Assembly: GCF_012849375.1 (NCBI RefSeq) | Contig: NZ_CP051684.1 | Location: 2,294,001 to 2,358,000 of the forward strand | DNA from: Duganella dendranthematis | GTDB lineage: Bacteria; Pseudomonadota; Gammaproteobacteria; Burkholderiales; Burkholderiaceae_D | Direction: 5' to 3' | DNA length: 64,000 nucleotides | Shown: piece after piece, positions 39,710 to 56,501 of the stretch | Layout of the letters: every line of letters starts with the position of its first letter | Numbering within the stretch: the stretch's first letter is position 1 | Notes under the pieces: model-generated | The model's input: the letters and a program-made list of their open reading frames with translations, nothing else | Database searches by the model: none | Told to the model about the DNA's origin: nothing | Position numbers and translations under genes: made by a program

Positions 39710-40306
39710 ATGACTAATCAACGCATCCTGGCGCACTTCCACGAAAGTGCCGAAATTAAAATCCAGTCCGCGACCGTGCTGGCCCCACACATCGCGCAGG
39801 CGATCGAGATGATGTTCTCGGCGCTGTCCAACGGCAACAAGATTCTGGTCTGCGGCAACGGCGGCTCGGCGGCCGATTCGCAGCACTTTGCGGCCGAACT
39901 GGTCGGACGCTTCGAACGCGAACGCTTCCCGCTGCCGGCCATCGCGCTGACCACCGACACCTCGATCCTGACGGCGGTCGCCAACGACTACAGCTACCGC
40001 GAGATTTTCTCCAAGCAGGTGCAGGCGTTCGGCCAGGAAGGCGACATCCTGCTGGCGTTCTCCACTTCCGGCAACTCCGGCAACGTGGTGGCGGCGATTG
40101 AAGCGGCGCTGGAACGCGAAATGCGCGTGGTCGCGATGACCGGCAAGGGCGGCGGCGCCATCGGCAAGATGCTGACCGACGCCGACGTCCACATCTGCGT
40201 GCCGGCCGACCGTACTGCCCGTATCCAGGAAGTTCACCTGGTCACCATTCATGCAATTTGCGACGGCATCGACGTCGCGCTGTTCGGAGGAGATGCGAAT
40301 GAGTAA
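39710..40306 (+). CDS. diaA: SIS-domain protein DiaA / phosphoheptose isomerase-like
   Basis: A 198-residue SIS protein. It has [47 protein letters not shown] and a C-terminal HAICDGID. Sequence alone fits both GmhA and DiaA, but the order lpoA-yraN-diaA-dolP points to DiaA, the tetrameric DnaA-binding initiation factor. No ribosome site precedes the ATG, and the adjacent TATAAT suggests a leaderless mRNA. The 3' end overlaps dolP by 8 bp. Confidence 0.88.
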
Positions 40307-40966
40307 GTCCAGCGCTATCTGGAAACAAGTACAACGTCCGCTGGCCATGAGCGTGTTGTGTGGCGCCATGCTGGCATCGCTGTCGGGCTGCGTCGCACTG
40401 GTGGCGGGCGGCGCGATTTCCGGTACGCTGGCTGCCTCCGACCGCCGCACCTTCGGCGCGCAAACCGAAGACCGCGCGATCGAAGTCAAGGGCGCGGTGC
40501 GCATCAACAACGTCACCGGCGACGCCGGCCATGTCAACATCAACAGTTTCAACCGCCGCGCGCTGCTGACCGGCGAAGTGCGCGATGACGCCATGAAAGC
40601 CGCGGTCGAGCGCGAAGTGCGCGGCATCGAAGGCGTGATCGACGTCATCAACGAACTGGAAGTGGCCGGCCTGGCCAGCTACACCTCCCGTTCCAGCGAC
40701 ACCATCATCACCGGCAAGGTCAAGGCCAGCCTGGTCGACGCCAAGGACATTTCGGCCAACTCGTATCAGGTGGTCACCGAGCGCGGCGTGGTCTACCTGC
40801 AGGGTCGCGTGACCCAGCGCGAGGGCCAGATTGGCGCCGACATCGCCCGCGGCGTCAGCGGCGTGATGAAGGTGGTCAAGGTGTTCGAATACATCAGCGA
40901 GGAAGAGCTGAAGCAGTATCAACCTCAGCCTGCCAATAGCGCCAATACCAATTCGCAGAGCGCACA

Positions 40967-40970
<4 letters not shown>
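40299..40970 (+). CDS. dolP: BON-domain outer-membrane lipoprotein DolP-like
   Basis: A 223-residue lipoprotein (lipobox LSGC near residue 30) with two BON domains: [26 protein letters not shown] with [10 protein letters not shown], then [19 protein letters not shown]. DolP (YraP) associates with the outer membrane and supports its integrity. A strong GGAGGAG site precedes ATG 40299, which overlaps the diaA end. The C-terminal Gln/Asn-rich tail is short. Confidence 0.9.
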
Positions 40971-41491
<521 letters not shown>

Positions 41492-41545
41492 CTGGCACGC
41501 GGCTTGCATGGCATAAAGCTCTCCTCAACTACCAGGAAAGCCGCC

Positions 41546-41989
41546 ATGGACCGCAACCAAGTTACGCAAAAAATCCTCTCCACTAAAGTCGCCAGGCAGA
41601 TGCGCTGGGCCGACCTCGCGCAGGAATTCGGTCAAAGCAAGGAGTGGACGACCGCCGCGCTGCTGGGCCAGATGACCTTCAGCCGCGCGCAGGCCGACAA
41701 GGCGCAGCAACTGTTCGACCTCACCGACGAGGAAGCGGCGTGGCTGCAAATCGTGCCGTACAAAGGCTCGCTACCGACCGCCGTGCCGACCGATCCGCTG
41801 ATCTACCGCTGGTACGAAATCGTCAGCGTCTACGGCACTACCATCAAGGAACTGATCCACGAGGAATTCGGCGACGGCATCATGAGCGCGATCGACTTCT
41901 CGATGGATATCCAGCGAGAAGCCGATCCCAAGGGCGACCGCGTGCAGGTGGTCCTGAGCGGCAAATTCCTGCCCTACAAATCCTACTAA
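41546..41989 (+). CDS. cynS: Cyanate hydratase (cyanase)
   Basis: A 147-residue cyanase that converts cyanate and bicarbonate to ammonia and CO2. The catalytic trio Arg88, Glu91 and Ser114 (YRWYEIV, GIMSAIDF) is spaced exactly as in E. coli CynS. The N-terminal helical DNA-binding-like domain is present. The start at ATG 41546 has AGGA about nine bases upstream. No cynR or cynT genes adjoin; the divergent or preceding genes are unrelated. Confidence 0.96.
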   Translation: MDRNQVTQKILSTKVARQMRWADLAQEFGQSKEWTTAALLGQMTFSRAQADKAQQLFDLTDEEAAWLQIVPYKGSLPTAVPTDPLIYRWYEIVSVYGTTIKELIHEEFGDGIMSAIDFSMDIQREADPKGDRVQVVLSGKFLPYKSY

Positions 41990-41994
41990 GCCAG

Positions 41995-42885
41995 CTAGAA
42001 GCCGGCCTGCAGCGACAGGTACAGGCCGTGCTGCTTCTTCGGATTGAATATGGTGATGTCACCCAGCTCCGCATACGCGGCCGTCACTGACACATTCCTG
42101 GTCGGGAACCAGGCGACGAAGGCGTCGTAATACGCCTTCTCATTGTCGACGCCGAGATTGTGCGGCTTGCGGCGGTACTCGGCGCCCAGCGCCACCTTGC
42201 GGGTGATCAGGTAGGCGGCCGAGAACTCCGGCATCAGGCGCGTATCGTCGTTGCGGTCGCCGCCGAAACCGAGGATGCCCATCTGGTTGGCGCGGGTGGC
42301 GCGCAGCGTGGCGTTCAGCAGCAGGCTTTGTTCCAGGTAGATCTTGGTGGCCGAGACGTAGTAGTCGTAGCCATGGTCGTCCTTGGCGCCCAGCTGCTTA
42401 ACGTTGGTGACGCCCAGCGCTTCCAGCCCGCGCACGCCTTTGTTCTTCTTGTACATCAAGCCGATCGCCACCTGTGGCACCCAGCTGTCCTGCTCATACA
42501 CGGCATCGCCCAGTACCTTCAGTTTAAGGCCGACGATATCCTGCTTGATGTTGAGCTTGTCCAGCGGCGCCAGGCTGCCCTTGAATTCCTGGTTGTCGAA
42601 CGACACTTCGAGCCGGTCGGCGATGCCGACCGCCACGCCGTAGCTGCCCAGCTTGTAGTCCTGCGTATTGATGTAGGTGTAGTGCGCATTCGCGCCCCAG
42701 CTGTCGCGCGAGCCGTAGCCGCTGATCAGCGCCCACGGTGTAATGCCGCCGCCGCCCGCGCCTTCCACCTGAATCACGCCGCCGGTGGCCAGCAGCTTGC
42801 CCATGTCGGGCGACGATTGCGCGTACGCGCCGGCAGACGGCAGTACCGCCAGCGCAGCCATCAAGGCTGGAATAATTTTTTTCAT
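41995..42885 (-). CDS. DUF3034 outer-membrane beta-barrel protein
   Basis: A 296-residue exported protein. The signal peptide ends AYA (about 22), repeated amphipathic strands follow, and it finishes in Phe (LYLSLQAGF), as outer-membrane barrels do. It matches my recollection of DUF3034 proteins (TGGVIQVEGAGGGGITPWA near the N-terminus). Function unknown, possibly a porin. It lies 18 bp downstream of the exported truncated haemoglobin gene and is likely co-transcribed with it. Confidence 0.8.
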   Translation of the reverse strand: MKKIIPALMAALAVLPSAGAYAQSSPDMGKLLATGGVIQVEGAGGGGITPWALISGYGSRDSWGANAHYTYINTQDYKLGSYGVAVGIADRLEVSFDNQEFKGSLAPLDKLNIKQDIVGLKLKVLGDAVYEQDSWVPQVAIGLMYKKNKGVRGLEALGVTNVKQLGAKDDHGYDYYVSATKIYLEQSLLLNATLRATRANQMGILGFGGDRNDDTRLMPEFSAAYLITRKVALGAEYRRKPHNLGVDNEKAYYDAFVAWFPTRNVSVTAAYAELGDITIFNPKKQHGLYLSLQAGF

Positions 42886-42903
42886 TATTGTGCTCCTGAC
42901 GGA

Positions 42904-43377
42904 TTACTTGGTGACGATATCGCGCTGCATCGGCGCCAGCTTGGCGACCAGCTTGAGCGCGACGCGGCTCGGCACATTGTGCTGTTCCATCGCGATCTGC
43001 AAATCCTCGGTCAGCGCATTGAACATGGCGTTGGTGATCTTCAGATCCTGGTGCACAGTCTTCATATCGCGCACCAGGCCCACGCCCTCCATTGCCTTGT
43101 CGTGGTATTTGCCGGTGTACTTGCACGGGCCGCCGGCGAACTCGCAGAACTGCTCCTGCAGGCGCACGTTCAGCTGCGGGATGTCGAAGTCGGTGAAGCT
43201 TTCCTTGATGCGCGGATCGGCCAGCACCAGCGTGATGAAGGTATCGACGATCTTCTTGATACCTTCCTTGCCGCCCAGGCCCTGGTAAGTCGAGTCCTCG
43301 GTATAGGGCGTTTGCGCCATGGCCAGCGAAGAAGCCAGCAGCAGGCCGCAGCCCAGGCGCTTGATGAATTTTTTCAT
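42904..43377 (-). CDS. Exported group I truncated haemoglobin
   Basis: A 157-residue protein with an N-terminal signal peptide (hydrophobic to about residue 21) and a truncated globin domain. It has YQGLGGKEGIKKIVDTF at the N-terminus, FAGGPCKYTGKYHDKAM and the proximal His109 in TVHQDLKIT. Periplasmic location is unusual for the family, whose members mostly act in the cytosol on NO or O2. It is paired with a DUF3034 outer-membrane protein gene. Confidence 0.88.
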   Translation of the reverse strand: MKKFIKRLGCGLLLASSLAMAQTPYTEDSTYQGLGGKEGIKKIVDTFITLVLADPRIKESFTDFDIPQLNVRLQEQFCEFAGGPCKYTGKYHDKAMEGVGLVRDMKTVHQDLKITNAMFNALTEDLQIAMEQHNVPSRVALKLVAKLAPMQRDIVTK

Positions 43378-43444
43378 ATCAGTCCTGATTAAAAACGATA
43401 AAGAGAATTCAGCGGGGGCTCGGCTTCTACTGCAATTTATCAGA

Positions 43445-43867
43445 TTATTTGGGGTACAAGATCATTTGCGTGCATCTGAACAACGCTATTGTTTTGCCAG
43501 TATCTTTGTTGATGACCGTGGCGTCCCACACCTGCGTGGTGCGGCCCAGATGCACCGCCGTGGCGGTGGCCACCACCGTGCCTTCGCGCGCGGTGCCGAG
43601 GTGATTGGATTTCAACTCGATGGTGGTGAAGTTCTGCGCGCCTTCCGGCAGATGCGAGAAGCACGCATAGCCGCAGGCCGTATCGGCCAGCGTGACCACG
43701 CTGCCCGCATGCAGGAAACCGTTCGGCGCGAGATGATAGCCGCTGACGGCGAATTCCGCCACAATCTCGCCTTCCTTGACGGAAGTGATGACGATGCCCA
43801 GATAATCCGGCAAGGTGCCCTTGCCGAACTGGTTGAAGTAGTCGGTATTGAATTTTTCCGCGTCCAT
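43445..43867 (-). CDS. PaaI-type hotdog thioesterase
   Basis: A 140-residue acyl-CoA thioesterase-like protein of the PaaI/4HBT family. It has GYHLAPNGFLHAGSVVTLADTACGYA, with the catalytic Asn and His-Gly segment, and ELKSNHLGTAREG. The substrate is unknown. It lies 12 bp downstream of the anti-sigma gene on the same strand and may be co-transcribed with the sigma/anti-sigma pair, which would be a curious addition to that regulon. Confidence 0.88.
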   Translation of the reverse strand: MDAEKFNTDYFNQFGKGTLPDYLGIVITSVKEGEIVAEFAVSGYHLAPNGFLHAGSVVTLADTACGYACFSHLPEGAQNFTTIELKSNHLGTAREGTVVATATAVHLGRTTQVWDATVINKDTGKTIALFRCTQMILYPK

Positions 43868-43879
43868 GCTGCTCCCTAT

Positions 43880-44572
43880 TTACATTACGCGTACCCACGC
43901 GCCTTTATAGAGTATAGGGCCAGTCGGACCATTCGGATCGGGCGAGCCGCCTTTCGGCTCCAGCGACACCGCCAGCAGCGCGACGTCGTCGCCGACCGCA
44001 TTGCTGCCCAGCGCCAGCTTGACTTCACCTCTGTCAGCCAGCAGGCCGAGCGAACGTGGATTGCCCTGTTTCGGCACCGCCCACAGTTGCAGCGTCTTGT
44101 CGCTGGCCACCGGCGCGTTGCCGACCAGGCGGACGGTCAGCGCCTTGCGATGCGTGTCGCCGGTCAGCACCAGTGCGGTCTGCGATTTCGCATCGGTCAG
44201 CGTGGCGACATAATCAAGCTGCGGCTGATCCAGCACGCGCGTGCCGATGACCACCACCAGCAAGGCCGCCATCGCGCTCGAAACCAGGCCGAGCGAGCGC
44301 CAGAAGGTCAGCGACGCCAGCCAGCCGGCTTGCGCCGGCCGCAGATTCAGGCGCCGCTCGATGCCGGCCCACACCTGCTTGCGCGGTGCCACCGCAGTGG
44401 CGAATTCGCCCATCGGCGTTAACCGGTCCTGCCACTCCGCCGTCAAACGGCGCAGCGCGGCGTCGTTGTGCAGATAGCCTTCGAAGCGGCGGCGGGCGCC
44501 GCCCTTCAGCGTGCCGAGTACATATTCCGCCGCTAGCTTTTCGCGCAATGGCGCATTGTCGCGAATATTCAT
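43880..44572 (-). CDS. Anti-sigma factor, RskA-like
   Basis: A 230-residue single-pass membrane protein. The N-terminal cytosolic anti-sigma domain ([22 protein letters not shown]) is followed by one transmembrane helix (about 95-117) and a C-terminal RskA periplasmic domain ([18 protein letters not shown]). It sequesters the ECF sigma factor encoded upstream; ATG 44572 overlaps its stop. There is no zinc HxxxCxxC motif. Release probably follows periplasmic proteolysis. Confidence 0.92.
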
Positions 44573-45156
44573 GGACGCTCTCCCTTGGCCAGGCACGTCT
44601 TCAGCTTTTCCAGGCTGCGGCGTATCCAGGTCTTGACGGTCCCGATCGGCAGCGCCATCTGCTGCGCCACTTCGCTGTGCGACAAATCATGAAAGAACGC
44701 CAGTCCCACCACCTGGCGGTGCAAGCCTTCCAGCGCCGACATGCAATACGCCAGCGCGGTGGCGTCGCGGCTGAGTTCCAGCGCCTCAATCGGCGTGGCG
44801 GCAGGGTCGTGCAGTGCATTCATGATTGCGGCGTCAAAAGGGTCTCCATCGATTTCGGCAGCGACATCGCTACGGCGGAGCAAATCGAAAGCCTTGTTGC
44901 GCACGATGGTGGTCATCCATGTCATCGGTGCGGCCAAATGGCTCTGATAAGTGCCGGCGTTGTGCCAGATCGCGACGAAACTTTCTTGCAACACTTCTTC
45001 AGCCAGTTCGCGCTTACCTAATATACGCAGCGCGAAGCCAAACAGTTTCGCTGAAGTAGCGTCATATAACGAGCGGAAAGCTGCGGCGTCGTGCAGGGCG
45101 GCGCCATTGAGCCAGGTGCGCAGCTGTTGGGGATCGAGGGTTTTGGCGTCGGACAC
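44569..45156 (-). CDS. ECF RNA polymerase sigma factor (SigK-like)
   Basis: A 195-residue sigma70-family ECF factor. Region 2 has [21 protein letters not shown] and [14 protein letters not shown], and region 4 has [32 protein letters not shown]. It groups with SigK/RskA-type pairs. GTG 45156 with AAGG upstream gives the usual family length; longer in-frame starts (ATG 45192, 45276) are possible. The divergent TonB receptor and the later DUF4331 operon carry a shared promoter-like motif, making them probable targets. Confidence 0.92.
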
Positions 45157-45220
45157 GGCATGCCTTAATCGGAAGATGAAGAAAATTACCATATTCCCAA
45201 CCTGGCGCGAAACAAAATCG

Positions 45221-45248
45221 TGAATCCAGTTGCAGCCCGCCTGCGTAC
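45221..45248 (+). promoter_or_regulatory. Putative ECF-sigma promoter of the TonB receptor gene
   Basis: TGAATCC (45221-45227) and CGTAC (45244-45248) are separated by 16 bp. The same layout, TGAATCT-N16-CGTAT, occurs upstream of the DUF4331 gene. The distance from the -10-like element to the start codon is 46 bp here and 48 bp there. Confidence 0.6.
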
Positions 45249-45294
45249 AAGGCTTACAACATGAAGCATTCAACAATGCGGGCGAGGGGACGGG

Positions 45295-47304
45295 ATGACG
45301 ACCAGATGCGGGGTTGCAGCAGTATCGGCACTGCTATTACACGGCGCGGCGCTGGCCACCGAGGACAGCACCGGTGCGCTGGCCAGCGTGACAGTGTTGG
45401 GGCATTACGACAATGCAGTCGGCACCTCCGACGCCGCCAGCCAGGGCACGGTGACGGCCAACCTGATCGCCAACCGTCCGGCACTGCGCACCGGCGAGCT
45501 GCTGGAGTTCGTGCCCGGCATGATCGTCACCCAGCACAGCGGCGACGGCAAGGCCAACCAATATTTCCTGCGCGGTTTCAATCTGGACCACGGCACGGAC
45601 TTCGCCACCTGGGTCGACGGCGTGCCGGTCAATATGCGCAGCAACGCGCACGGCCAGGGCTATTCCGACCTCAACTTCCTGATTCCCGAGCTGGTGCAGC
45701 GCATCGACTACAAGAAAGGCAGTTACTTCGCCGACGAGGGCGACTTCTCCTCGGCCGGCGCCGCCCACATTGGCCTGAGCGACCAGCTGAAGCAGGGCAT
45801 TGCCAGCCTGACCGCCGGCAGCTACGGCTACCAGCGCGGCGTGCTGGCCGACTCGATGGAAGCCGCTGGCGGCACCCTGCTGTACGGGCTGGAAGTAAGC
45901 CGCAACAACGGCCCGTGGCAAACCCCGGAGCAGGTGCGCAAGTACAGCGGCACGCTGCGCTACAGCCACGGCGACGCGCAAGACGGCTATAGCATCACCG
46001 CCATGGCCTACCGCAACCGCTGGAACGCCACCGACCAGGTGCCGCTGCGCGCCGTGCAGGAAGGCCTGATCGGCCGCTTCGGCAGCCTTGACCCCACCGA
46101 CGGCGGCGACACCTCGCGCACCAGCCTGGCCTGGAATATGCACCGGCGCGACAGCGACCACGTGACGCAGGCCTCGGCCTACCTGGTGCGCTCCAGCCTC
46201 GACCTCTACAGCAACTTCACTTATCTGCTGAACGACCCGGTCCACGGCGACCAGTTCCAGCAAAGCGAACGCCGCACCATGGGCGGCGGCAGCGTCAGCC
46301 AGGCCTGGCTGAACAACACCGGCGGCATCGACATGCGCAACCAGCTGGGCCTGCAGGCGCGCTACGACCACATCGCCCCGATCGGCCTGTACGCTACCGA
46401 GGGACGCCAGCGGCTGTCCACCGTGCGCGAGGACCGCGTCAACGAGGCCAGCGTCGGTCTGTATGCGGACAACACCAGCTACTGGACGCCGACCTTCCGC
46501 AGCATCGCCGGCCTGCGCTATGACGCCTACCGCTTCAAGGTCAACGACGACAGCGCCAATGCGCACAAGTTCTCGCCCAAGCTGTCGCTGATCTTCGGGC
46601 CATGGGCCCAGACCGAATATTTCATTAACTACGGCGCCGGCTTCCACAGCAACGATGCGCGCGGCGTCACCGGCCCAGATCCCGCACCGCCGCTGGTCGG
46701 CACGCGCGGCGCCGAACTGGGCGTGCGCAGCGAATGGCTGCCGGGCCTGCAAAGCTCCTTGTCGGTCTGGGCGCTGGATATCGATTCGGAACTGGTGTAC
46801 GCCGGCGACAGCGGCCAGACCGAAGCCAGCCGCGCCAGCCGCCGCACCGGCGTCGAATGGAACAACCACTACATCGCCGCGCCGTGGCTGCTGTTCGACC
46901 TCGACCTGGCGGTGTCGCACGCGCGCTACCGCCAGAGCGACCCGGTGGGCAACTATGTGCCGGAGGCGCTGGACAAGGTGGCGTCGTTCGGCGTCACGGT
47001 CAAGGATATCGGCCGCTGGTTTGGCGGCTTTGAACTGCGCTACTTCGGCCAGCGCCCGCTGATCGAAGACAACAGCGTGCGCTCGGCCGCCACTACGCTG
47101 GCCTATGGCCGCATCGGCTATCAACTGAATAAGCGCACCAGGCTGACACTGGACGGTTTCAACCTGTTCAACCGCCGCGCCAGCGACATCGACTACTACT
47201 ACACCTCGCGTCTGGCGGGCGAGCCGGCCGAAGGTGTGAACGATGTGCATTTCCATCCGGTCGAGCCGCGCACGCTGCGGCTGACCCTGACGCACAACTT
47301 CTAA
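45295..47304 (+). CDS. TonB-dependent outer-membrane receptor
   Basis: A 669-residue receptor. It has a signal peptide, a plug domain (VTVLGHYDNAVGTSDAASQG, LEFVPGMIVTQHSGDGKANQYFLRGFNLDHGTDFA in short pieces) and a 22-strand-type barrel ending in RLTLTHNF with the terminal Phe. It takes up an unknown ligand using TonB energy. There is no N-terminal signalling (STN) domain, so it does not itself signal through FecR. GAGGGGACGGG precedes the ATG. It lies divergent from the ECF sigma gene. Confidence 0.93.
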   Translation: MTTRCGVAAVSALLLHGAALATEDSTGALASVTVLGHYDNAVGTSDAASQGTVTANLIANRPALRTGELLEFVPGMIVTQHSGDGKANQYFLRGFNLDHGTDFATWVDGVPVNMRSNAHGQGYSDLNFLIPELVQRIDYKKGSYFADEGDFSSAGAAHIGLSDQLKQGIASLTAGSYGYQRGVLADSMEAAGGTLLYGLEVSRNNGPWQTPEQVRKYSGTLRYSHGDAQDGYSITAMAYRNRWNATDQVPLRAVQEGLIGRFGSLDPTDGGDTSRTSLAWNMHRRDSDHVTQASAYLVRSSLDLYSNFTYLLNDPVHGDQFQQSERRTMGGGSVSQAWLNNTGGIDMRNQLGLQARYDHIAPIGLYATEGRQRLSTVREDRVNEASVGLYADNTSYWTPTFRSIAGLRYDAYRFKVNDDSANAHKFSPKLSLIFGPWAQTEYFINYGAGFHSNDARGVTGPDPAPPLVGTRGAELGVRSEWLPGLQSSLSVWALDIDSELVYAGDSGQTEASRASRRTGVEWNNHYIAAPWLLFDLDLAVSHARYRQSDPVGNYVPEALDKVASFGVTVKDIGRWFGGFELRYFGQRPLIEDNSVRSAATTLAYGRIGYQLNKRTRLTLDGFNLFNRRASDIDYYYTSRLAGEPAEGVNDVHFHPVEPRTLRLTLTHNF

Positions 47305-47336
47305 ATACAGTTTCTAAAAAATAATCTTATGAAATC

Positions 47337-47364
47337 TGAATCTGACGCGCGGTGCGCCGCGTAT
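47337..47364 (+). promoter_or_regulatory. Putative ECF-sigma promoter of the DUF4331 operon
   Basis: TGAATCT (47337-47343), 16 bp, CGTAT (47360-47364). It matches the motif upstream of the TonB receptor in sequence, spacing and distance to the start codon (ATG 47413). Confidence 0.6.
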
Positions 47365-47412
47365 ATCACCCTGCAGTACCCACAGAAGGTCTACTCATTC
47401 GGAGGAAGCGAG

Positions 47413-48942
47413 ATGCAAACTATCATCAATCAAGCCGTGCGCCTGGCAGTTATTGGCACACTGGCCGGTGCATATCTGCCGGCGGCAATGGCGTCCAGCC
47501 ACCGCGAAGCACCGTTCATTACGCAAAGCCCCAAGGTCGACGGCACCGACTTCTATATGTTCCGCAGCTACGAAACTGGCCGCAGCGCCTTCGTCACGCT
47601 GATCGCCGACTACGTGCCGCTGCAAGATCCCGGCGCCGGTCCCAACTACTTCGCCATGGACCCGAACGCGCTGTACGAGATCCACATCGACAACAACGGC
47701 GACGCCAAGGAAGACCTGACCTTCCAGTTCCGCTTTAATAACACCAACAAGGACACCAAGCTGACAGTGGGGGGCAAGCAGGTATCGATTCCGCTGGTAA
47801 TCAACGGCGGCGCCATCGCCGCGCCGAATGCGGCCGGCGCCAACATCCGCGAAACCTATACCATCAACGTGGTGCGCGGCGACCGCCGTACCGGCACCAA
47901 AGCGGCCGTCACCAATGCTGCCGATGGCGGCACCACCTTCGACAAGCCGCTCGACAACATTGGCAACAAGTCGATTCCGAACTATGCAGCTTACGCCGCA
48001 GCGCACGTCTACAGCGTCAACATCCCCGGTTGCAGCACGCCAGCGCGGGTGTTCGTCGGCCAGCGCAAAGACCCGTTCGTGGTCAACCTGGGCGAGACCT
48101 TCGATCTGGTGAACATCAAGGCGCCGGCCACCGAATTTGCCGCCAACGCGGAAAGCGCCGCCAAGGACGACCTGGCCGGCAAAAACGTCACCGCCATCGA
48201 GATGGAAGTGGCAGCCTCCTGCCTGACCGCCTCCGGCAGCAGCGATCCGGTGATCGGCGGCTGGACCACCGCCAGCGTGCGCCAGGGCCGTCTGCTGAAT
48301 CCGACGCCAAACACCGGTACGCCATCGAAAGAAGGCGGCGCCTGGACGCAAGTCTCGCGCCTCGGCATGCCGCTGGTGAACGAAGTGGTGATCGGCTTGA
48401 AGGACAAGGACACCTTCAACGCCAGCAAGCCTTCCGGCGATACGCAGTTTGCCACCTACGTGACCAATCCAACGCTGCCAGCGCTGATTGAAATCCTGTA
48501 CGGCAGCGCCGGTGCCAAGGCGCCGACCAACTTCCCGCGCAACGATCTGGTAGCGGCATTCCTGACCGGCGTGAAGGGCCTGAACCAGCCCGCCACCGTC
48601 ACCCCGTCCGAAATGCTGCGCCTGAATACCAGCACGCCAGCGGTGGCCGTAGGTAGCCAGAACCGCCTGGGTGTGATCGGTGGCGACAATGCCGGCTTCC
48701 CGAACGGCCGTCGTCCCGGCGACGACGTGGTCGATATCGCGCTGCGCGTAGTGATGGGCAAACTGTGCACGCTGAACCTCGGCTGCGCACCGGCCGATGC
48801 ACCGGCTGGCGGCCTGCACTTCACCGACGGTGCCTTCCTGGACGCCAGCTTCTTTAACACCGGCTTCCCATATCTGAAAACCCCGCTGCCAGGTTCGCCG
48901 CAAACCGGCGCCGTGGTGCAAGCCGCACGGGGGGCGCCATGA
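47413..48942 (+). CDS. DUF4331 domain exported protein
   Basis: A 509-residue protein with a signal peptide ending near MAS (about 29), directly followed by the family hallmark SSHREAPFI and KVDGTDFYMFRS. An Asp/Asn-rich stretch, HIDNNGDAKEDLTF, resembles a calcium-type loop. The C-terminal part includes DDVVDIALRVVMG. DUF4331 proteins have no established function. GGAGG precedes ATG 47413. It heads an operon with a small lipoprotein, a TPR protein and a HupE-like permease, under an ECF-type promoter motif. Confidence 0.88.
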   Translation: MQTIINQAVRLAVIGTLAGAYLPAAMASSHREAPFITQSPKVDGTDFYMFRSYETGRSAFVTLIADYVPLQDPGAGPNYFAMDPNALYEIHIDNNGDAKEDLTFQFRFNNTNKDTKLTVGGKQVSIPLVINGGAIAAPNAAGANIRETYTINVVRGDRRTGTKAAVTNAADGGTTFDKPLDNIGNKSIPNYAAYAAAHVYSVNIPGCSTPARVFVGQRKDPFVVNLGETFDLVNIKAPATEFAANAESAAKDDLAGKNVTAIEMEVAASCLTASGSSDPVIGGWTTASVRQGRLLNPTPNTGTPSKEGGAWTQVSRLGMPLVNEVVIGLKDKDTFNASKPSGDTQFATYVTNPTLPALIEILYGSAGAKAPTNFPRNDLVAAFLTGVKGLNQPATVTPSEMLRLNTSTPAVAVGSQNRLGVIGGDNAGFPNGRRPGDDVVDIALRVVMGKLCTLNLGCAPADAPAGGLHFTDGAFLDASFFNTGFPYLKTPLPGSPQTGAVVQAARGAP

Positions 48943-49193
48943 AGATCAAGATCCTGACGCTGGGCCTCGGTGCGCTGCTGGTGCTCAGCGCCTGCGGTGG
49001 CAGCAGCAGCCACTATGAATCGCCGACGCCGCCCGTTACGACGCCGCCGCCACCGGTCTCGATGGTGGATGCGTTCTTCACGGCGGTTCTGGCCATCATT
49101 GGTGACGGCAGCGAAACCACCACCGAGCCGCAAGCGATCGACAGCATCGTCGCCACCGCACCGGAAGATACCGAACCGGTCGTATTGAAGTAA
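48939..49193 (+). CDS. Small lipoprotein
   Basis: An 84-residue lipoprotein with lipobox VLSAC (Cys19), a Pro/Thr spacer and a short acidic C-terminal part (VDAFFTAVLAIIGDGSETTTEP). The family was not recognised. ATG 48939 overlaps the DUF4331 stop (ATGA), so translation is coupled and it likely works with the DUF4331 protein. A nested palindromic repeat begins at its stop codon. Confidence 0.8.
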   Translation: MKIKILTLGLGALLVLSACGGSSSHYESPTPPVTTPPPPVSMVDAFFTAVLAIIGDGSETTTEPQAIDSIVATAPEDTEPVVLK

Positions 49194-49256
49194 CCCGCAA
49201 CCGAAAGGGTCTGACCCCGTGCGGGGTCAGACCCTGGCCTCCGCGGTCTGCGGGGT
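49193..49256. repeat. Nested palindromic repeat, copy 2
   Basis: The core arms AGGGTCTGACCCC (49206-49218) and GGGGTCAGACCCT (49223-49235) have a 4-bp loop and sit inside outer arms ACCCGCA (49193-49199) and TGCGGGGT (49249-49256). It lies between two genes of one operon, immediately after the lipoprotein stop, so it may attenuate or stabilise the transcript. Confidence 0.85.
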
Positions 49257-49277
49257 AAAAAGTGCCGAGGGCCCATC

Positions 49278-50441
49278 ATGCACAAACTAATTCTGGCGCT
49301 GGCATGTTGCAGCGCCGCTGCCACCCAGGCAGCCCCCTACATTCCCGCCAGCGGCCAGCTGGTGGTGGAAACCGTGCCGCGCCGGGGCGACCCGGCGCAA
49401 CAGGAATTGCGCCGCTTGCGCAGCCAGCTCAACGCCAGCCCGAACGACATTACCCTCGCCGCCACCATCGCGCGCCGCTACATCGCGCTGGCCCGCAGCG
49501 AAACCGATCCACGCTACCTGGGCTACGCGGAATCCGCACTCGCCCCCTGGTGGCAGCAAGCCGCGCCACCCACCGACGTCCGACTGCTGCGCGCCACACT
49601 CCTGCAAAGCACCCACCAATTCACGCCGGCGCTGGCCGACCTGAAAGCCGTGCTGGCGTCCGAACCGCAAAACGTCCAGGCCTGGCTGACGCAAGCCACC
49701 GTGCAAACCGTCCAAGGCGACTATTCCGGCGCCACCGTCAGCTGTGCGCGCGTGTCCGGCCTGTCGATCGAACTGGTGGGCATCACCTGCATCGCCAACA
49801 TCGGCGCCGTCACCGGCAAGGCCGCAGCCAGCGAACAGCTGCTGGACCTGACGCTATCCCGCAGTTCCAACGCGCCGCAGGATTTGCGTGTCTGGGCACT
49901 GACGCTGCTGGCGGAAATGGCCCAGCGGCGCGGCGACGCAACAACGTCCGAAGCCCGCTTCCGCCGCGCACTGACGCTGAGTCCACGCGACAGCTATCTG
50001 CTGGGCGCCTACGCCGACCTGCTGCTGGAACAAAACCGCGCCGCCGACGTGCTGGAACTGCTGCGCGACCAGGAACGCATCGACGCGCTGCTGCTACGCC
50101 GCGCACTCGCCCTGCAACAAGCGGGCAAACAAAGCGCAATGCAAGCCGACGTCCGCGAACTGGCCGCGCGCTTCGACGCCGCCGCCCAACGCGGCGACAC
50201 CGTCCACCAACGCGAACAAGCGCGCTTTGAACTGGTGCTGCGTCACGATGCCAAAACTGCGCTGGCCTTGGCCCGCAAAAACTGGGAAGTACAAAAAGAG
50301 CCCGCCGACATCCGCATCTATCTGCAAGCCGCTGTACAGGCACGCGCGGACGCCAGGCCGGTGATCGAATGGGTCGCCACCCATCACACCGAAGATGCCG
50401 CCGCCACGCGGCTGATTCACCAACTGCAAGCGGGGACATGA
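49278..50441 (+). CDS. Exported tetratricopeptide-repeat protein
   Basis: A 387-residue protein with a signal peptide ending QAA (about 19) and TPR-like helical pairs across about 40-320 (for example ALADLKAVLASEPQNVQAWLTQA and EARFRRALTLSPRDSYLLGAYA, in short pieces). No catalytic motif is present; it is probably a periplasmic scaffold. It lies between the DUF4331/lipoprotein genes and the HupE-like gene, whose ATG overlaps its stop, so it belongs to the same system. Confidence 0.85.
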   Translation: MHKLILALACCSAAATQAAPYIPASGQLVVETVPRRGDPAQQELRRLRSQLNASPNDITLAATIARRYIALARSETDPRYLGYAESALAPWWQQAAPPTDVRLLRATLLQSTHQFTPALADLKAVLASEPQNVQAWLTQATVQTVQGDYSGATVSCARVSGLSIELVGITCIANIGAVTGKAAASEQLLDLTLSRSSNAPQDLRVWALTLLAEMAQRRGDATTSEARFRRALTLSPRDSYLLGAYADLLLEQNRAADVLELLRDQERIDALLLRRALALQQAGKQSAMQADVRELAARFDAAAQRGDTVHQREQARFELVLRHDAKTALALARKNWEVQKEPADIRIYLQAAVQARADARPVIEWVATHHTEDAAATRLIHQLQAGT

Positions 50442-51553
50442 TGAAACGATGGCTACTTGGTTTGCTGTTGTGCTGCGCCATGCTCCCAGCGTCCGCGCAC
50501 AAACCCAGCGACAGTTATTTGTCGCTCGACGTGCAGGGCGAAAAGGTCAGCGGCCAGTGGGACATCGCGCTGCGCGACCTGGATTACGCCATCGGCCTTG
50601 ACCAGAATGGCGACGGCAAGCTGACATGGGACGAAATCCGCACCCGCCACGCCGCGATTGCAGCCTACGCGCTGGAGCGCCTCAACCTGGCGACCGACGA
50701 CGGCGCCTGTAGCGTACACACCGACCAGCAACTGATCGACGACCACACCGACGGCGCCTACAGCGTGCTGCGCTTTACCGCCACCTGCCCGTCGTCACCG
50801 GCCGCGCTGATCATCGGCTATCGGCTGTTCGCCGATCTCGATCCGCAGCACAAAGGGTTGCTGCGGCTGACGCATGCGGGCGTTACCTCCACCGCGATTT
50901 TCGAACCTAGCCATGCGCAACAACGCCTGTCGCTGGCGGCGCCGGACCAGTGGCGCCAGTTCAGCGCGTACGTCAAGGACGGTGTCTGGCATATCTGGAT
51001 TGGCTACGACCACATCCTGTTCCTGCTGTCGTTGCTGCTGCCGGCCGTGCTGCTGGCGGCGCCGGCCAACAACCTGCGCGGTGCCTTCATCGACGTGCTG
51101 AAAGTGGTGACGGCGTTCACGCTGGCGCACTCGCTGACGTTGACGCTGGCCAGCCTGTCGCTGATATCGCTGCCTTCGCGACTGGTGGAATCGGCCATCG
51201 CCGCTTCGGTCATTCTGGCGGCGGTCAACAACGTCTACCCGCTGTTTAGGGGACGGCGGCCATGGGCTGCATTCGGTTTCGGCCTGATACATGGCTTCGG
51301 CTTTGCCAGCGTATTGATCGATCTCGGACTGCCAAAAGGCGCGCTGCTGGCGAGTCTATTTGGCTTTAACCTGGGCGTCGAAATTGGTCAGCTGTGCATC
51401 GTCGCCGTGTTCCTGCCGCTGGCGTTCCTGCTGCGCCGGACCCGGTTCTACCACCACCTGCTGACCGGCGGCTCCGCCGTCATCGCGCTGGTGGCGCTGG
51501 TGTGGTTCATCGAACGCGCGCTGGATATTCAAGCCCAGTGGATCGGCGTGTGA
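50438..51553 (+). CDS. HupE/UreJ-like permease with periplasmic EF-hand
   Basis: A 371-residue protein with a signal peptide ending SAH (about 21) and an N-terminal periplasmic domain (about 22-180) containing a canonical EF-hand loop, DQNGDGKLTWDE (55-66). About six membrane helices of the HupE/UreJ_2 family follow, with GYDHILFLLSLLLPAVL, TLAHSLTLTLA and FGLIHGFGFASVL. The conserved His/Asp recall nickel/cobalt-type permeases. ATG 50438 overlaps the TPR stop. Its 3' end overlaps the convergent ung gene by 25 bp. A transport role for a metal ion is inferred. Confidence 0.88.
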   Translation: MMKRWLLGLLLCCAMLPASAHKPSDSYLSLDVQGEKVSGQWDIALRDLDYAIGLDQNGDGKLTWDEIRTRHAAIAAYALERLNLATDDGACSVHTDQQLIDDHTDGAYSVLRFTATCPSSPAALIIGYRLFADLDPQHKGLLRLTHAGVTSTAIFEPSHAQQRLSLAAPDQWRQFSAYVKDGVWHIWIGYDHILFLLSLLLPAVLLAAPANNLRGAFIDVLKVVTAFTLAHSLTLTLASLSLISLPSRLVESAIAASVILAAVNNVYPLFRGRRPWAAFGFGLIHGFGFASVLIDLGLPKGALLASLFGFNLGVEIGQLCIVAVFLPLAFLLRRTRFYHHLLTGGSAVIALVALVWFIERALDIQAQWIGV

Positions 51554-52191
51554 CCATTGGCGGCCAGATAATCGTTCGCCCGCGAAAATGGCTTGCTGCC
51601 AAAGAAGCCTTTATGCGCGGAGAACGGCGAGGGATGCGGCGACGTAATCACTAGATGCTTGCCGCTGTCGATCAACGCGCGCTTGGCGATTGCATAGCTG
51701 CCCCACAAGATGAACACAATGCGCTCGCGCTGCTGCGACAGTGCGCGGATGGCGCTGTCGGTGAACGTCTCCCAGCCGTGATTGGCGTGCGAACCGGCTT
51801 CACGCGCACGCACTGTCAGCACGCTATTCAGCAAGAACACGCCCTGCTGCGCCCAGTCGCTGAGATCAGTCTGGCGACGATCGACACCCAGATCGTTATG
51901 CAGCTCCTGAAAAATATTCTGCAAGCTAGGCTGCGGTCGATTCCCCTCCGGCACCGAAAAACAAAAACCCATCGCGGCACCGGGCGTGTGATACGGGTCC
52001 TGGCCGAGGATCACGACTTTAACGTCATCGAACGGCGTCAAATCAAAGGCGCGGAAGATATTCTTGCCAGCCGGGCAGCACTGCGTCGCAGCATATTCGG
52101 CGCGGACGAACGACGTCAGCGATTCCCAATACGGCTGCTCAAACTCCCCCTGCAAGCGCTGCTTCCACGACTCCTCAATGCGTACACTCAT
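51529..52191 (-). CDS. ung: Uracil-DNA glycosylase
   Basis: A 220-residue family 1 UDG that removes uracil from DNA. The water-activating Asp65 lies in VVILGQDPYHTPGAAMGFCFS, the motif LLNSVLTVRAREAGSHANHGWE is present in parts, and the Leu-loop region is HPSPFSAHKGFFGSKPFS. The start at ATG 52191 has GGGAA upstream. It overlaps the convergent HupE-like gene at its 3' end. Confidence 0.97.
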   Translation of the reverse strand: MSVRIEESWKQRLQGEFEQPYWESLTSFVRAEYAATQCCPAGKNIFRAFDLTPFDDVKVVILGQDPYHTPGAAMGFCFSVPEGNRPQPSLQNIFQELHNDLGVDRRQTDLSDWAQQGVFLLNSVLTVRAREAGSHANHGWETFTDSAIRALSQQRERIVFILWGSYAIAKRALIDSGKHLVITSPHPSPFSAHKGFFGSKPFSRANDYLAANGHTPIHWA

Positions 52192-52294
52192 GTGCGTTCC
52201 CGGACGATGCCACCGTTTTAGCGTTTCACTCCGGGCGAGTATAACGCCCTTGGCGTAAAATCCATGATTCATCACCGAACGCTACGGGACTACT

Positions 52295-53185
52295 TTGGAC
52301 ATCCGCTCGCTCCGCTATTTCGTCACCACCGTGCAGCTGAACAGCTTCACCCAAGCGGCTGAATCGATGTACGTCACCCAATCGACCATCAGCAAGATGG
52401 TGCGGCAACTGGAGGAGGAAGTCGGCGAGGCGCTGCTGATACGGCAAGGCCGCAAGCTGGTACTGACCGACGCCGGCCGCATCGTGTTTGAGCGCGGGCA
52501 GGAGATGCTCAACTCCATGCGCCTGCTGAACACGGAACTGCAAGACACCAAGGCCTTGCAGCGCGGCCACCTGACTGTCGGCATTCCGCCGATGATCAAC
52601 CTGCTGTTCACGCCGGTGCTGAAGGCGTTCCGCGAACGGCATCCGGATATCGAACTGACGCTGCGCGAAGATACCGGCCAGGTCATCGAGCGGCTGGTGG
52701 CGACCGGCGAACTGGAACTCGGCATGACCGTGTCGCCGGTCGATCCGTCGCTGGATTTGCAATCGAAAGAAGTGGCCAAATTTCCCATCTGGGCCGTGGC
52801 CAAGCCGGACACCTTCCGCCGCAACGCGGCCACCATCAAGCTGTCCAATCTGGCGTCGATGCCGCTGGTGCTGCTCAAGGACGAATTTGCGTTGACGCGC
52901 GCCTTGCGCCAGGTCTTCCAGCAGCACGGACTGGAGCCGGTGATCGCGGCCCAAAGCGGCCAGTGGGATTGGTTGCTGTCGATGGCGTCGGCCGGCGTCG
53001 GCGTGGCCTTGCTGCCGGAGCCGTTCATTCACCGGCTCAACGGCGTCGAGGTGGCCGCGGTGCGCGTGGTCGAACCAGAGATCAGCTGGCGGCTGGCCCA
53101 CATCTGGAACGGCCGCTACCTGTCGCACGCGGCACGCGCCTGGGTGGAGTTGTGCGCGACCATGCTGCCCGGCCACTGGTTGTAG
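52295..53185 (+). CDS. LysR-family transcriptional regulator
   Basis: A 296-residue LTTR. It has an N-terminal winged helix (MDIRSLRYFVTTVQLNSFTQAAESMYVTQSTISKMVRQLE read in parts) and a substrate-binding domain with a CynR/CbbR-like beginning, RGHLTVGIPPMINLLFTPVL. The TTG start at 52295 has GGGAC upstream. It is divergent from ung with a 103-bp gap and has no clear target next to it, so the ligand and regulon are unknown. Confidence 0.92.
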   Translation: MDIRSLRYFVTTVQLNSFTQAAESMYVTQSTISKMVRQLEEEVGEALLIRQGRKLVLTDAGRIVFERGQEMLNSMRLLNTELQDTKALQRGHLTVGIPPMINLLFTPVLKAFRERHPDIELTLREDTGQVIERLVATGELELGMTVSPVDPSLDLQSKEVAKFPIWAVAKPDTFRRNAATIKLSNLASMPLVLLKDEFALTRALRQVFQQHGLEPVIAAQSGQWDWLLSMASAGVGVALLPEPFIHRLNGVEVAAVRVVEPEISWRLAHIWNGRYLSHAARAWVELCATMLPGHWL

Positions 53186-53226
53186 TAACAAGCGCGTAGA
53201 ATGGCGTCTTTAAAAAGGACACCGAC

Positions 53227-53490
53227 ATGAAGAAAACAGATTTGGCCAAGGCCGACGCCAAAAAGCTGATGGGCAAAATGGGCACGCCCGGCACCGCCTT
53301 TGGCAACGCCGGTACCGCCGTCGTCGACAAGCGCGAGCAGCGCAAACGCGACCAGGCGCTGGGCCTGGTGCCATTCGCCGTCAAACTGAATGATGAACTG
53401 GTAAAACGCCTGCACACTCTCGCCACCGAGCGCGGCCAGGATCTGAACCAGACCGTCGCCGAAGTGCTGGCCAAGGGCCTGGACGCCTAA
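53227..53490 (+). CDS. Small protein with ribbon-helix-helix-like C-terminus
   Basis: An 87-residue basic protein. The N-terminal part (KKLMGKMGTPGTAFGNAG) is Gly/Lys-rich, and the C-terminal 40 residues (VPFAVKLNDELVKRLHTLA, then LNQTVAEVLAKGL) read like a ribbon-helix-helix DNA-binding segment. The role is unknown; an autoregulatory or antitoxin-like DNA-binding protein is possible. Ribosome site AAGGACACCGACATG. It is next to, but convergent with, the VapBC-type pair. Confidence 0.65.
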   Translation: MKKTDLAKADAKKLMGKMGTPGTAFGNAGTAVVDKREQRKRDQALGLVPFAVKLNDELVKRLHTLATERGQDLNQTVAEVLAKGLDA

Positions 53491-53494
53491 GCGT

Positions 53495-53872
53495 TCAAAT
53501 CACCTCAACCAGAGGGGAGTAGCTGGCCAGCAAACGATCAGCGGTCAGCAGCCTCAAAGATTCCGAGACAGCTTGCGCGACCAGCATGCGGTCGAAAGGA
53601 TCTTTATGAAGGTAGGGCAGACGTAGTACCGCCGCCGCGTGCGCGTGCGAAATGCGCAACTCTTGCAAGCCTGTTTGTGCCATTTGATTTACTAGCTCAC
53701 CTAAATCAAGGTTGAGCTTGCCAATGCCCACTTTGATCGAGATTTCCCAGATCGAGACACTGCTGACGTAGACCATAGGCGCGGCCAAAATCTGGGTGCG
53801 CACTTTTTTGGATAATCTCAGACTATCTTGCAGACACCAGAGCAGTATGTGAGTGTCCAGCAGCAAATGCAC
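53495..53872 (-). CDS. vapC: VapC-type PIN-domain toxin
   Basis: A 125-residue PIN-domain ribonuclease with acidic residues Asp6 (LLLDTHILLW), Glu43 (SIWEISIK), Asp91/Asp94 (HKDPFDRMLVAQA) and the late LLTADR. It would cleave RNA when free of its antitoxin. The GTG start shares one base with the stop of the antitoxin gene (TAGTG). Length is typical. Confidence 0.92.
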   Translation of the reverse strand: MHLLLDTHILLWCLQDSLRLSKKVRTQILAAPMVYVSSVSIWEISIKVGIGKLNLDLGELVNQMAQTGLQELRISHAHAAAVLRLPYLHKDPFDRMLVAQAVSESLRLLTADRLLASYSPLVEVI

Positions 53873-54108
53873 TATTTCCCCTCGAACGCAGCCTGTAAGT
53901 CGTCAGGCAGCGGTGCGTCGAAGTCATCTGCAATCCAGATCTTGCCTTTCATGGTGCCGAGCCGGCGAACAACCTTTGTAGGACGAAGGGCAACCAGTTG
54001 GGCAACAAGTTCTCCGCCCTGTGAAATGATCACTTCCTCGCCGTGCCTGACGGCTTCCACTAAACCAGGGAGCTGATTTTGTGCTACTGCGATATCAATG
54101 ATAGGCAT
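53872..54108 (-). CDS. Phd/YefM-type antitoxin
   Basis: A 78-residue prevent-host-death family antitoxin. The N-terminal DNA-binding part has IDIAVAQNQLPGLVEAVRHGEEVIISQGGELVAQLVAL read in segments, with a short acidic C-terminal tail (DDFDAPLPDDLQAAFEG) that would wrap the toxin. It likely represses its own operon. It precedes and overlaps the PIN toxin gene by one base. Confidence 0.9.
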   Translation of the reverse strand: MPIIDIAVAQNQLPGLVEAVRHGEEVIISQGGELVAQLVALRPTKVVRRLGTMKGKIWIADDFDAPLPDDLQAAFEGK

Positions 54109-54173
54109 GTGACCTCCGACAGTTCAGTCTAGCCGTCCAGACTTACAGCGCAAGCCCTGCCATTTGAGACAAA

Positions 54174-54206
54174 TCAAAAAAGGCTCCGTGAGGAGCCTTT
54201 GTTTTT
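54174..54206. terminator. Intrinsic terminator after lipA
   Basis: AAGGCTCC (54180-54187), loop GTGA, GGAGCCTT (54192-54199), with six A on the left and TGTTTTT on the right, so it can terminate in either direction. On the minus strand it follows the lipA stop codon directly. Confidence 0.9.
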
Positions 54207-55179
54207 AGCCTGCTGCCAGCACGTTGTGTGCTTGCTCGTCCGCGTGGTACGAGCTGCGCACCATGGCGCCGACGGCGGCGTGCTTGAAGCCCATTTTGTA
54301 GGCTTCTTCTTCGTACATCTTGAACACGTCCGGGTGCACGTAGCGGCGCACCGGCAGGTGGCTGTTGGACGGCGCCAGGTACTGGCCGATGGTCAGCATG
54401 TCGATGTCGTGCTCGCGCATGTCGCGCATCACTTGCAGCACTTCTTCGTCGGTCTCGCCCAGGCCGACCATGATCCCCGACTTGGTCTTGACACTCGGGT
54501 ACATTGCCTTGAAATCCTTCAGCAGCTTCAGCGAGTGCATGTAGTCCGAACCCGGACGCGCTTCCTTGTACAGGCGCGGTGCGGTTTCCAGGTTGTGGTT
54601 CATCACGTCCGGCAGGCCGTCGGCGAAGATCGCCAGCGCTTTTTCCAGGCGGCCGCGGAAATCCGGCACCAGCACTTCGATCTGGGTTTTCGGCGACAGC
54701 GCGCGGGTGTTCTGGATGCACTCGACGAAGTGCTGCGCACCGCCGTCGCGCAGGTCGTCGCGATCCACCGAGGTGATCACAACGTAGCTCAGGCGCAGCT
54801 TGGCGATGGTGTGCGACAGGTTGGTCGGCTCATCCTTGTCCAGCGGGTCCGGGCGGCCGTGGCCGACGTCGCAGAACGGGCAGCGGCGGGTGCACTTGTC
54901 GCCCATGATCATGAAGGTGGCCGTGCCCTTGCCGAAGCACTCGCCGATGTTCGGGCAGCTGGCTTCTTCGCACACGGTCACCAGCTTGTTCTCGCGCAGC
55001 GTTTCCTTGATTTCGTAGAAACGGGTGTTCGGCGAACCGGCCTTGACGCGGATCCAGTCCGGCTTCTTCAGGCGCTCGACCTGCTCGATCGGCACGATCT
55101 TGATCGGAATGCGCGAAGTCTTGCTGGCGCCTTTTTGCTTCTCGCTCGGGTTGTACGCTACGATGGTTTCAGTGGTCAT
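54205..55179 (-). CDS. lipA: Lipoyl synthase
   Basis: A 324-residue radical SAM enzyme that inserts two sulfurs into octanoyl groups on E2 and GcvH proteins. The auxiliary cluster motif is [13 protein letters not shown] and the SAM cluster motif is [18 protein letters not shown] near the C-terminus carries the conserved Ser ligand. It lies 7 bp downstream of lipB and is followed by an intrinsic terminator. Confidence 0.97.
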
Positions 55180-55186
55180 AATCAGT

Positions 55187-55846
55187 TCATTCGTTGGTCG
55201 CCAGGACGCGGACTAATTCCTCGGCCAGCTGCTGTTGCACATCCGACAGTTTTGCCTGCGCGCCAACGGTGCGCATATCGACTGTTTCCAGTCCGGCATA
55301 GCCGCAAGGATTAATCCAGGAAAACGGGGCCAGATCCATCGCCACATTCAGCGACAGCCCGTGGTAGGTGCAGCCATTGCCGCGTACCTTCAAGCCCAGC
55401 GCGGCAATCTTCGCGCCTTTGTGATCGCCGCCGGCCATATAGATGCCCGGCGCGCCTTCCACGCGCTCACCGACGAGATTATACGCCTGCAAGACATTGA
55501 TGATCGCCTGCTCGATTTTATGCACAAACTGGCGGGCATACAGCTTGCCGCCCGGCTTGTTGCGGCGCAGATCCATCAGCAGGTAAATCACCACCTGGCC
55601 GGGCCCGTGATAGGTGACTTCACCGCCGCGATCGGTCTGGACTACGGGAATCTCCGTGGCCCCGGCCAGCAGGTGGCCGCGGTCGGCGCCCAGGCCCAGC
55701 GTGTACACCGGCGCGTGCTCGACGATCCACAATTCATCGCGCGAGTCCGGCGTGCGGGCGTCGGTAAAGGCCCGCATGGCGGCGAAGGTGCTGTCGTAAT
55801 CGGCTTGGCCGAGATGCTTGATCTCAGGGAAGGTAGGAGACGTCAT
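55187..55846 (-). CDS. lipB: Octanoyltransferase
   Basis: A 219-residue cofactor transferase that moves octanoate from ACP to lipoyl domains. It has [43 protein letters not shown] read in parts, and the catalytic Cys in NPCGYAGLE. The start at ATG 55846 begins the conserved part; the ribosome site is weak. It forms a pair with lipA. Confidence 0.96.
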
Positions 55847-55874
55847 CCCGCCATTATACGCCTGCGCGTCACTT

Positions 55875-56501
55875 TCATCCCGGCTGGTGGCGGGCCAGCC
55901 AGGCCTGCACCGACGGCCGCTGCCACTGGAAATCGACGTAGTCGCGCAGCTTGGCCGGCACCGCGTCGCCATTGCGCACTAGCCGGCTCAGCATGATGGC
56001 GAGGTCAGTATCGGCAATCGACCAGTCGCCGAACAGGTGCTGCGGCCCCTGCACCAGGCGTTCGGCCACGTGCACCAGCTTGGCGGCGGCCGCCTGCGCG
56101 GTCTCGCTCAGCGGCGCGCACGGCTTCTTGAAGAACACGGTTTCGGTATCGCGCTCGACCCGCACCGGCACCAGGTCGCTGCGCACCCACGCCTGGAGCT
56201 GCCGCGCCAGCGCACGCTGACGGCGGTCCTGCGGATACAGCGCGATGTACTCCGGCGGTGGAAAGCTCTCGTCCAGGTATTCGGTGATGGCGCTCGACTC
56301 GGTCAGCACAAAATCCCCTTCCACCAGCGCCGGGACGCGGGCGGTCAGCGCGCGGTCGGCAAACGCCGCCTGTCTCTGCTCACCACTGCCCAGATCCACC
56401 GTCTTGACGCTGAAAGGCAAGCCCTTCTCGGTCAGCGCCACAAACACGGACAAAGCATACGGGCTGGTGAAAAGGCTATCGGCGTACAGTTCAAACAACA
56501 T
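55875..56501 (-). CDS. Glutathione S-transferase (YfcF-like)
   Basis: A 208-residue GST. The N-terminal thioredoxin-like domain has [22 protein letters not shown] and the glutathione-contact segment [13 protein letters not shown], and the C-terminal helical domain follows. It probably conjugates glutathione to electrophiles or has peroxidase activity. It is divergent from a LysR regulator, which is the likely controller, and is inserted between lipB and the DUF493 gene. Confidence 0.9.

Follow-up and report, generated by a model that had tools for sequence, protein, structure and literature searches.

The 64,000-nucleotide stretch of DNA analysed here (the window; contig NZ_CP051684.1, positions 2,294,001 to 2,358,000) comes from the 6.53-Mb genome of Duganella dendranthematis, a soil bacterium. 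At window positions 43880–51553 it contains genes for an extracytoplasmic function (ECF) sigma factor with an adjoining membrane anti-sigma factor, a TonB-dependent receptor, an exported DUF4331 protein, a small lipoprotein, a tetratricopeptide repeat (TPR) protein and a HupE-like permease. We interpret this locus, with moderate confidence, as an ECF regulon of SigK/RskA-like type, with a core operon that captures a transition metal and moves it through the envelope; the metal is most probably copper and, after it, nickel. The anatomy of the locus fits metal capture, as it comprises a receptor, partner proteins with two N-terminal metal motifs, and a permease with conserved His and Asp residues. 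All the families that the initial annotation had named here, from the ECF sigma factor to the permease, are present.

The sigma factor (44569–45192, minus strand), identified by its family match, is encoded next to an anti-sigma factor of the RskA_C type (43880–44572, minus strand; PF10099, E 3.6e-24), whose start codon (ATG at 44572) overlaps the stop codon of the sigma gene. An RskA_C anti-sigma factor is common to this locus and the SigK/RskA regulon. Cysteines 150 and 200 of the sigma factor are both retained in all 29 aligned sigma factors, including that of the window; their spacing of 50 residues is the same as that of C133 and C183 in SigK, a comparison made by spacing, with SigK itself outside the alignment (PMC7509140). 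The NCBIfam model for SigK, PRK09646, ranked third by E-value with 125.5 bits, short of its cut-off of 226, and the protein is therefore called SigK-like rather than SigK. Among genomes lacking an adjacent sigma factor of this kind, all four tested encode an orthologue elsewhere (60–76% identity, the next best hit reaching at most 34%), and in one of them, L284, the motif precedes this sigma gene. A minimal mpt83-sigK-rskA cassette has been described and tested in a Gram-negative bacterium (PMC7509140). A further resemblance is seen in Andreprevotia (L087), where a fasciclin-like gene separates the sigma pair from the DUF4331 gene and both it and the DUF4331 gene are preceded by TGCATCC-N16-CGTA; the fasciclin-like gene was called by eye from its likeness to Pfam-confirmed fasciclins elsewhere. 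Unlike the SigK/RskA regulon, the core output in the window is a TonB–DUF4331–HupE operon, and a fasciclin search of the window's genome gave no match.

The motif TGAATCC-N16-CGTA is conserved between the sigma and TonB genes in the window (45221–45247, plus strand) and in eight aligned loci, and a second copy, TGAATCT-N16-CGTA, precedes the DUF4331 gene (47337–47363, plus strand). These are the only two occurrences of TGAATCN-N16-CGTA in the whole window, against 0.03 expected. Among the named loci, GAATC[CT]-N16-CGTA was found before 62 of 79 DUF4331 genes, 20 of 29 TonB genes and one of two genes labelled DUF4198b, and before none of 1,288 unlabelled genes (838 from named loci, 450 from class loci). 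The form GAATCC-N16-CGTA occurred 68 times in the loci and its reversal never, while spacers of 12, 14, 15, 17, 18 and 20 nucleotides gave 1, 3, 0, 9, 0 and 3 occurrences, respectively. A looser pattern, which includes TGCATCC-N16-CGTA, precedes, in the named loci, 72 of 79 DUF4331 genes versus 10 of 1,121 others; for the class loci the corresponding figures are 8 of 19 and 7 of 465, and duplicates were removed for the count of 19, bar one genome. In the organism's own genome, the pattern with a spacer of 15–17 nucleotides matched four times versus once for the control, one match (L186) having the spacer of 17.

The gene order of the core is conserved. In 80 named DUF4331 loci, examined for genes within 7.5 kb and in some cases cut by contig ends, a TPR gene was found in 71, a HupE gene in 70 and a small lipoprotein gene in 70, the last figure relying in part on a text pattern. 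ECF genes labelled “sigma” occur in 38 of these loci, TonB genes in 30, SigF–NrsF genes in 16 and DUF4198 genes in 4. The positions of the sigma and TonB genes vary, the latter lying before, inside or after the core. The treatment of the five families as one unit in the initial annotation is supported by this order, and the co-occurrence check it proposed gave a similar picture: of 229 genomes of the class, 22 encode DUF4331 and 67 encode HupE_UreJ_2 (63 over its cut-off), and 20 encode both (Fisher p 3e-10, calculated without phylogenetic correction). In 15 of the 22 DUF4331 genomes the HupE gene, as read from two tables, lies downstream within 4 kb on the same contig and strand. Independent occurrence of the families, which had been put forward as grounds for rejecting the unit, holds for one side only, since 47 of the 229 genomes encode HupE_UreJ_2 but not DUF4331, while DUF4331 lacks HupE_UreJ_2 in just 2 of 22. 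Because of these 47 genomes, and of loci L092, L098 and L101, where DUF4331 and the lipoprotein accompany DUF4198 without TPR–HupE in the stretch examined, the parts are separable.

In the window, the TonB-dependent receptor (45295–47304, plus strand) is followed by genes for the DUF4331 protein (47413–48942, plus strand; E 7.4e-159), an 84-aa lipoprotein with lipobox LSAC and two C-terminal TEP motifs (48939–49193, plus strand; no Pfam match), an exported TPR protein recognized by family match (49278–50441, plus strand) and the permease (50438–51553, plus strand). The overlapping stops and starts reported for the last four genes exist at two of the three junctions, at 48939–48942 and 50438–50441 (4 nt each); the lipoprotein and TPR genes are separated by 84 nt. 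The DUF4331 gene most likely starts at 47413 rather than 47329, given the ECF promoter at 47337–47363 and the length of 509 aa in the nearest database relatives. The HupE start is most likely 50438, since its nearest relatives have 371 aa. The closest named DUF4331 loci are those of Duganella margarita (99% identity) and D. levis (98%). A lipoprotein was counted with 132 of 148 DUF4331 open reading frames (ORFs), including at least two false matches (L112, L129).

The location of an ECF gene beside a TonB receptor resembles FecI/FecR/TonB signalling. Cell-surface signalling of this type was, however, rejected: by Pfam the receptor consists of Plug and barrel only, with no signalling domain, and the anti-sigma factor is of the RskA_C type, not FecR.

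The DUF4331 protein carries a predicted N-terminal metal motif. After the predicted cleavage of its signal peptide, the mature protein would begin with Ser-Ser-His (from 47494), an X-X-His sequence in which the second residue is not proline and which, when free, is an amino-terminal copper- and nickel-binding (ATCUN) motif; Cu(II)/Ni(II) binding by the mature protein is therefore the natural prediction. An AxA-like site is immediately followed by x-x-His-x-[EDQ]-[AGS]-Pro in 147 of 148 local DUF4331 ORFs, which include second views (short and long loci) of some genomes, and 142 of the 147 have Ala at position -1. The sole exception (L089) was called with too short a start, and its DNA encodes the motif. 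All 120 close relatives listed have it, as do 116 of 120 members of a clade that shares about 33% identity with the window protein; in the remaining four the start is short or odd. In an alignment of 47 sequences (42 of the 147 ORFs, the window protein and four database proteins), His3 never varies, and invariant Asp residues are also present. By a crude signal-peptide rule, His at predicted position +3 is found in 35 of 36 DUF4331 proteins versus 3 of 31 TPR proteins and 1 of 98 other exported proteins. The family comprises at least 8,000 relatives, all 8,000 scored candidates having matched. A PDB sequence search with DUF4331, as single sequence or profile, gave no match, and no paper naming DUF4331, PF14224 or the N-terminal motif was found in the literature searched.

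The permease contains the HupE_UreJ_2 domain (PF13795, E 7.2e-49, above the cut-off), conserved His and Asp residues in its membrane part and an N-terminal periplasmic domain. His1 directly follows the predicted signal peptide (at 50498); by the same crude rule, His at predicted position +1 occurs in 49 of 54 HupE proteins versus 3 of 98 other exported proteins. A model of the N-terminal domain has an Ig-like fold, its best match being the Cu-bound structure 9GCE, followed by the zinc proteins ZrgA and PA4063; matches ranked below PA4063 (e.g., GLIC, G6PT) are common folds and were set aside. A permease class combining HupE/UreJ-2 with Ang-1 (anglerase) was described in 2025 (Franco Cairo; PMC12537917). 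The window HupE shares with the Ang-1 anglerase the PF13795 transmembrane domain, the predicted His1 and the Ig-like fold, and differs from it in having only 17% identity to 9GCE and an EF-hand-like loop. DUF4331, TPR, the lipoprotein and the ECF promoter do not figure as operon partners in the available parts of the Ang-1 account (PMC12537917). Together, the N-terminal His motifs and the Ang-1-like fold support the suggestion of the initial annotation that the ligand is a metal.

The EF-hand-like loop, DQNGDGKLTWDE (50600–50635, plus strand, within the Ang-1-like domain, from the HupE alignment), raises the possibility of calcium or lanthanide handling through this loop and the acidic lipoprotein, which we regard as very unlikely. 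The pattern D-x-[DN]-x-[DN]-x(4)-W-x-E was recognized by eye in 35 of 39 aligned HupE rows from DUF4331 loci and in 1 of 10 others (48 of 99 collected ORFs plus the window), and by profile the nearest solved relatives of the TonB receptor are the pyrroloquinoline quinone transporter PqqU/YncD, then BtuB. The loop could, however, be structural, the PqqU similarity is distant, and His1 and Ser-Ser-His are the kind of ligand expected for copper or nickel rather than calcium. PDB searches with the single HupE or TonB sequence gave nothing useful.

Nickel comes close behind copper as the candidate metal. A distinct proposal, uptake of nickel or cobalt to feed urease, hydrogenase or cobalamin, appears improbable. 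It would be consistent with the nickel link of HupE/UreJ permeases and of DUF4198, which binds Ni (PMC12537917), and with the extra HupE_UreJ genes near DUF4331 in L087, L089 and L090 (Pfam on both of those in L087). The ability of ATCUN motifs to take up either Ni(II) or Cu(II) would also fit. No nickel/cobalt or cobalamin riboswitch was detected, however, either at window positions 40000–56000, scanned with a permissive threshold, or in eight related loci, scanned with the gathering threshold: Rfam returned nothing at gathering score for this part of the window (best E 0.17 at the permissive threshold) and two tRNAs only for the eight loci. Ang-1, moreover, prefers Cu to Ni in vitro (Kd 74 and 220 nM, respectively; PMC12537917), and bufferins, which counter copper stress (PMC12452194), share the ECF promoter in part of the genus; copper is preferred here for these two reasons.

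The sigma factor appears to act on a wider gene set, some members of which lie elsewhere in the genome. Fifteen genomes of the genus contain 26 exact motif matches, versus 3 for the reversed control, located before genes for TonB (6), DUF4331 (6), a conserved small protein (5), cytochrome c (3) and bufferin precursors (2), or without recurrent target (4). Ten genomes with DUF4331 carry 25 of them, one of the ten having none, and the five without DUF4331 carry one. Six further genomes gave 27 matches versus 6 for the control: DUF4331 and amine oxidase 3 each (Pfam confirming one of the latter as flavin amine oxidase), TonB, fasciclin, DUF3455 and the small protein 2 each, DUF4198, DUF3034 and the sigma gene itself (L284) 1 each, and 10 without recurrent target. 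The notion that the sigma factor switches the system on agrees with the motifs before TonB and DUF4331, whereas its apparent reach is broader than this system. In seven genomes (L182:1554-1769, L189, L193, L196, L205, L275, L286) the small protein, 70–85 aa long, begins about 9–55 nt downstream of the ECF promoter; two members scanned had no Pfam match.

This gene set bears on a doubtful but still serious alternative, an envelope redox-stress regulon in which the SigK-like sigma factor would answer oxidants or a damaged envelope, the DUF4331 operon would be one protective output, and metal binding would be secondary or structural. The flavin amine oxidase, fasciclin and DUF3455 genes, the motif at cytochrome c in 3 of the 15 genus genomes and the invariant sigma cysteines are consistent with it. 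Some gammaproteobacterial clusters pair the ECF gene with a ChrR-type cupin anti-sigma factor (L153 by Pfam, others by eye), a type tied to singlet oxygen, and SigF–NrsF and MsrPQ-like genes adjoin in 15–16 of 80 loci. For pure redox defence, however, it would be odd to combine a TonB receptor, a permease and two proteins bearing metal motifs at their N-termini, and in some genomes the same promoter is found at DUF4198 and bufferin genes. As a separate observation, SigF–NrsF genes lie directly upstream of DUF4331 in 16 of 80 loci (L054–L091, mostly Janthinobacterium), the opposite side being occupied by DUF1223 and molybdopterin-oxidoreductase/cytochrome b561 genes; in many of these loci DUF4331 retains the promoter of the other ECF.

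Bufferin/Gig copper systems likewise combine envelope copper defence with an ECF gene, control of Gig by the neighbouring ECF being assumed and not shown (PMC12452194, PMC10304878). Of 30 bufferin regions examined in the genus, five had no bufA start found; among the 25 usable ones, six have the exact motif before the bufferin operon, all from DUF4331 carriers. Scanning of 20 further MNIO loci (L212–L231) for the same bufA start gave none. The DUF4331 operon differs in lacking a bufferin. The organism's own bufferin operon (L211:5205-7201, about 4.115 Mb) encodes a DUF2282-like precursor, then a 579-aa MNIO-DUF2063 fusion. Cupriavidus RpoQ was not found among the 25 plasmid records listed out of 454.

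In the favoured interpretation, a periplasmic stress or metal signal would release the sigma factor from its membrane anti-sigma factor, and the sigma factor would transcribe the TonB–DUF4331–lipoprotein–TPR–HupE operon from TGAATCC-N16-CGTA-type promoters. The TonB receptor would import the metal or a chelate, processed DUF4331 would hold the metal by its Ser-Ser-His, and the lipoprotein may tether or dock partners via its repeated TEP tail. HupE would take the metal by the N-terminal His1 domain and pass it to the conserved His/Asp membrane site. The same sigma factor may drive cytochrome c and the 70–85-aa protein and, in some genomes, DUF4198, DUF3034 and fasciclin proteins and bufferins. 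The analysis shows the gene order, the promoter motif, the N-terminal motifs and the fold of a model; the signal, the metal and the direction of movement are inferred, and so is the complete route from outside to cytosol that the initial annotation had envisaged.

Several points weigh against this interpretation. The mature N-termini of DUF4331 and HupE are predicted, HupE relatives are known for nickel, and the usual role of TonB receptors, in uptake, is hard to square with a response to copper excess. None of 36 class-level DUF4331 rows, some of them retained duplicate views of one genome, is preceded by GAATC[CT]-N16-CGTA. In view of the matches in the reversed controls, some listed targets are chance, and the amine oxidase, fasciclin and cytochrome c genes among the targets would be as much at home in a redox or envelope stress response as in metal handling. 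The six motif-bearing bufferin regions look like one related group, and the organism's own bufferin operon has no ECF motif upstream.

Other genes of the window and genome may be noted. A DUF3034 gene (41995–42885, minus strand) is a possible regulon member, because its homologue in L298 follows the same ECF promoter; no ECF motif was found upstream of the window gene. A globin gene (42904–43377) and the DUF3034 gene adjoin the cluster, and the distant genome of L148 likewise has both next to DUF4331. Two small ORFs at 53227–53872 resemble, by eye, an antitoxin and PIN-domain toxin pair. A second HupE/UreJ-2 gene of the same genome (L160:7392-8471, about 3.03 Mb) has His after the signal peptide and adjoins a gene for an Ig-like-looking lipoprotein. 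Another HupE/UreJ-2 group (L166, L169, L170, L176) has no His1 in the aligned rows, and its neighbouring gene presumably resembles SoxB.

We tentatively propose that DUF4331 is a large exported metal-protein family, using a free Ser-Ser-His for copper or nickel within a SigK/RskA-like regulon that includes an EF-hand-bearing anglerase permease. The N-terminal motif gives DUF4331 a testable function, and the promoter links the operon to a regulator. For SigK/RskA, the literature describes the signal as unknown (PMC7509140), and here a metal-handling operon lies under a SigK-like sigma factor; the open question can therefore be reduced to an induction experiment. The locus thereby suggests what SigK-like regulators with unknown trigger may sense. 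If the proposal is true, envelope metal, copper in particular, would be the long-missing signal or cargo of Gram-negative SigK/RskA systems.

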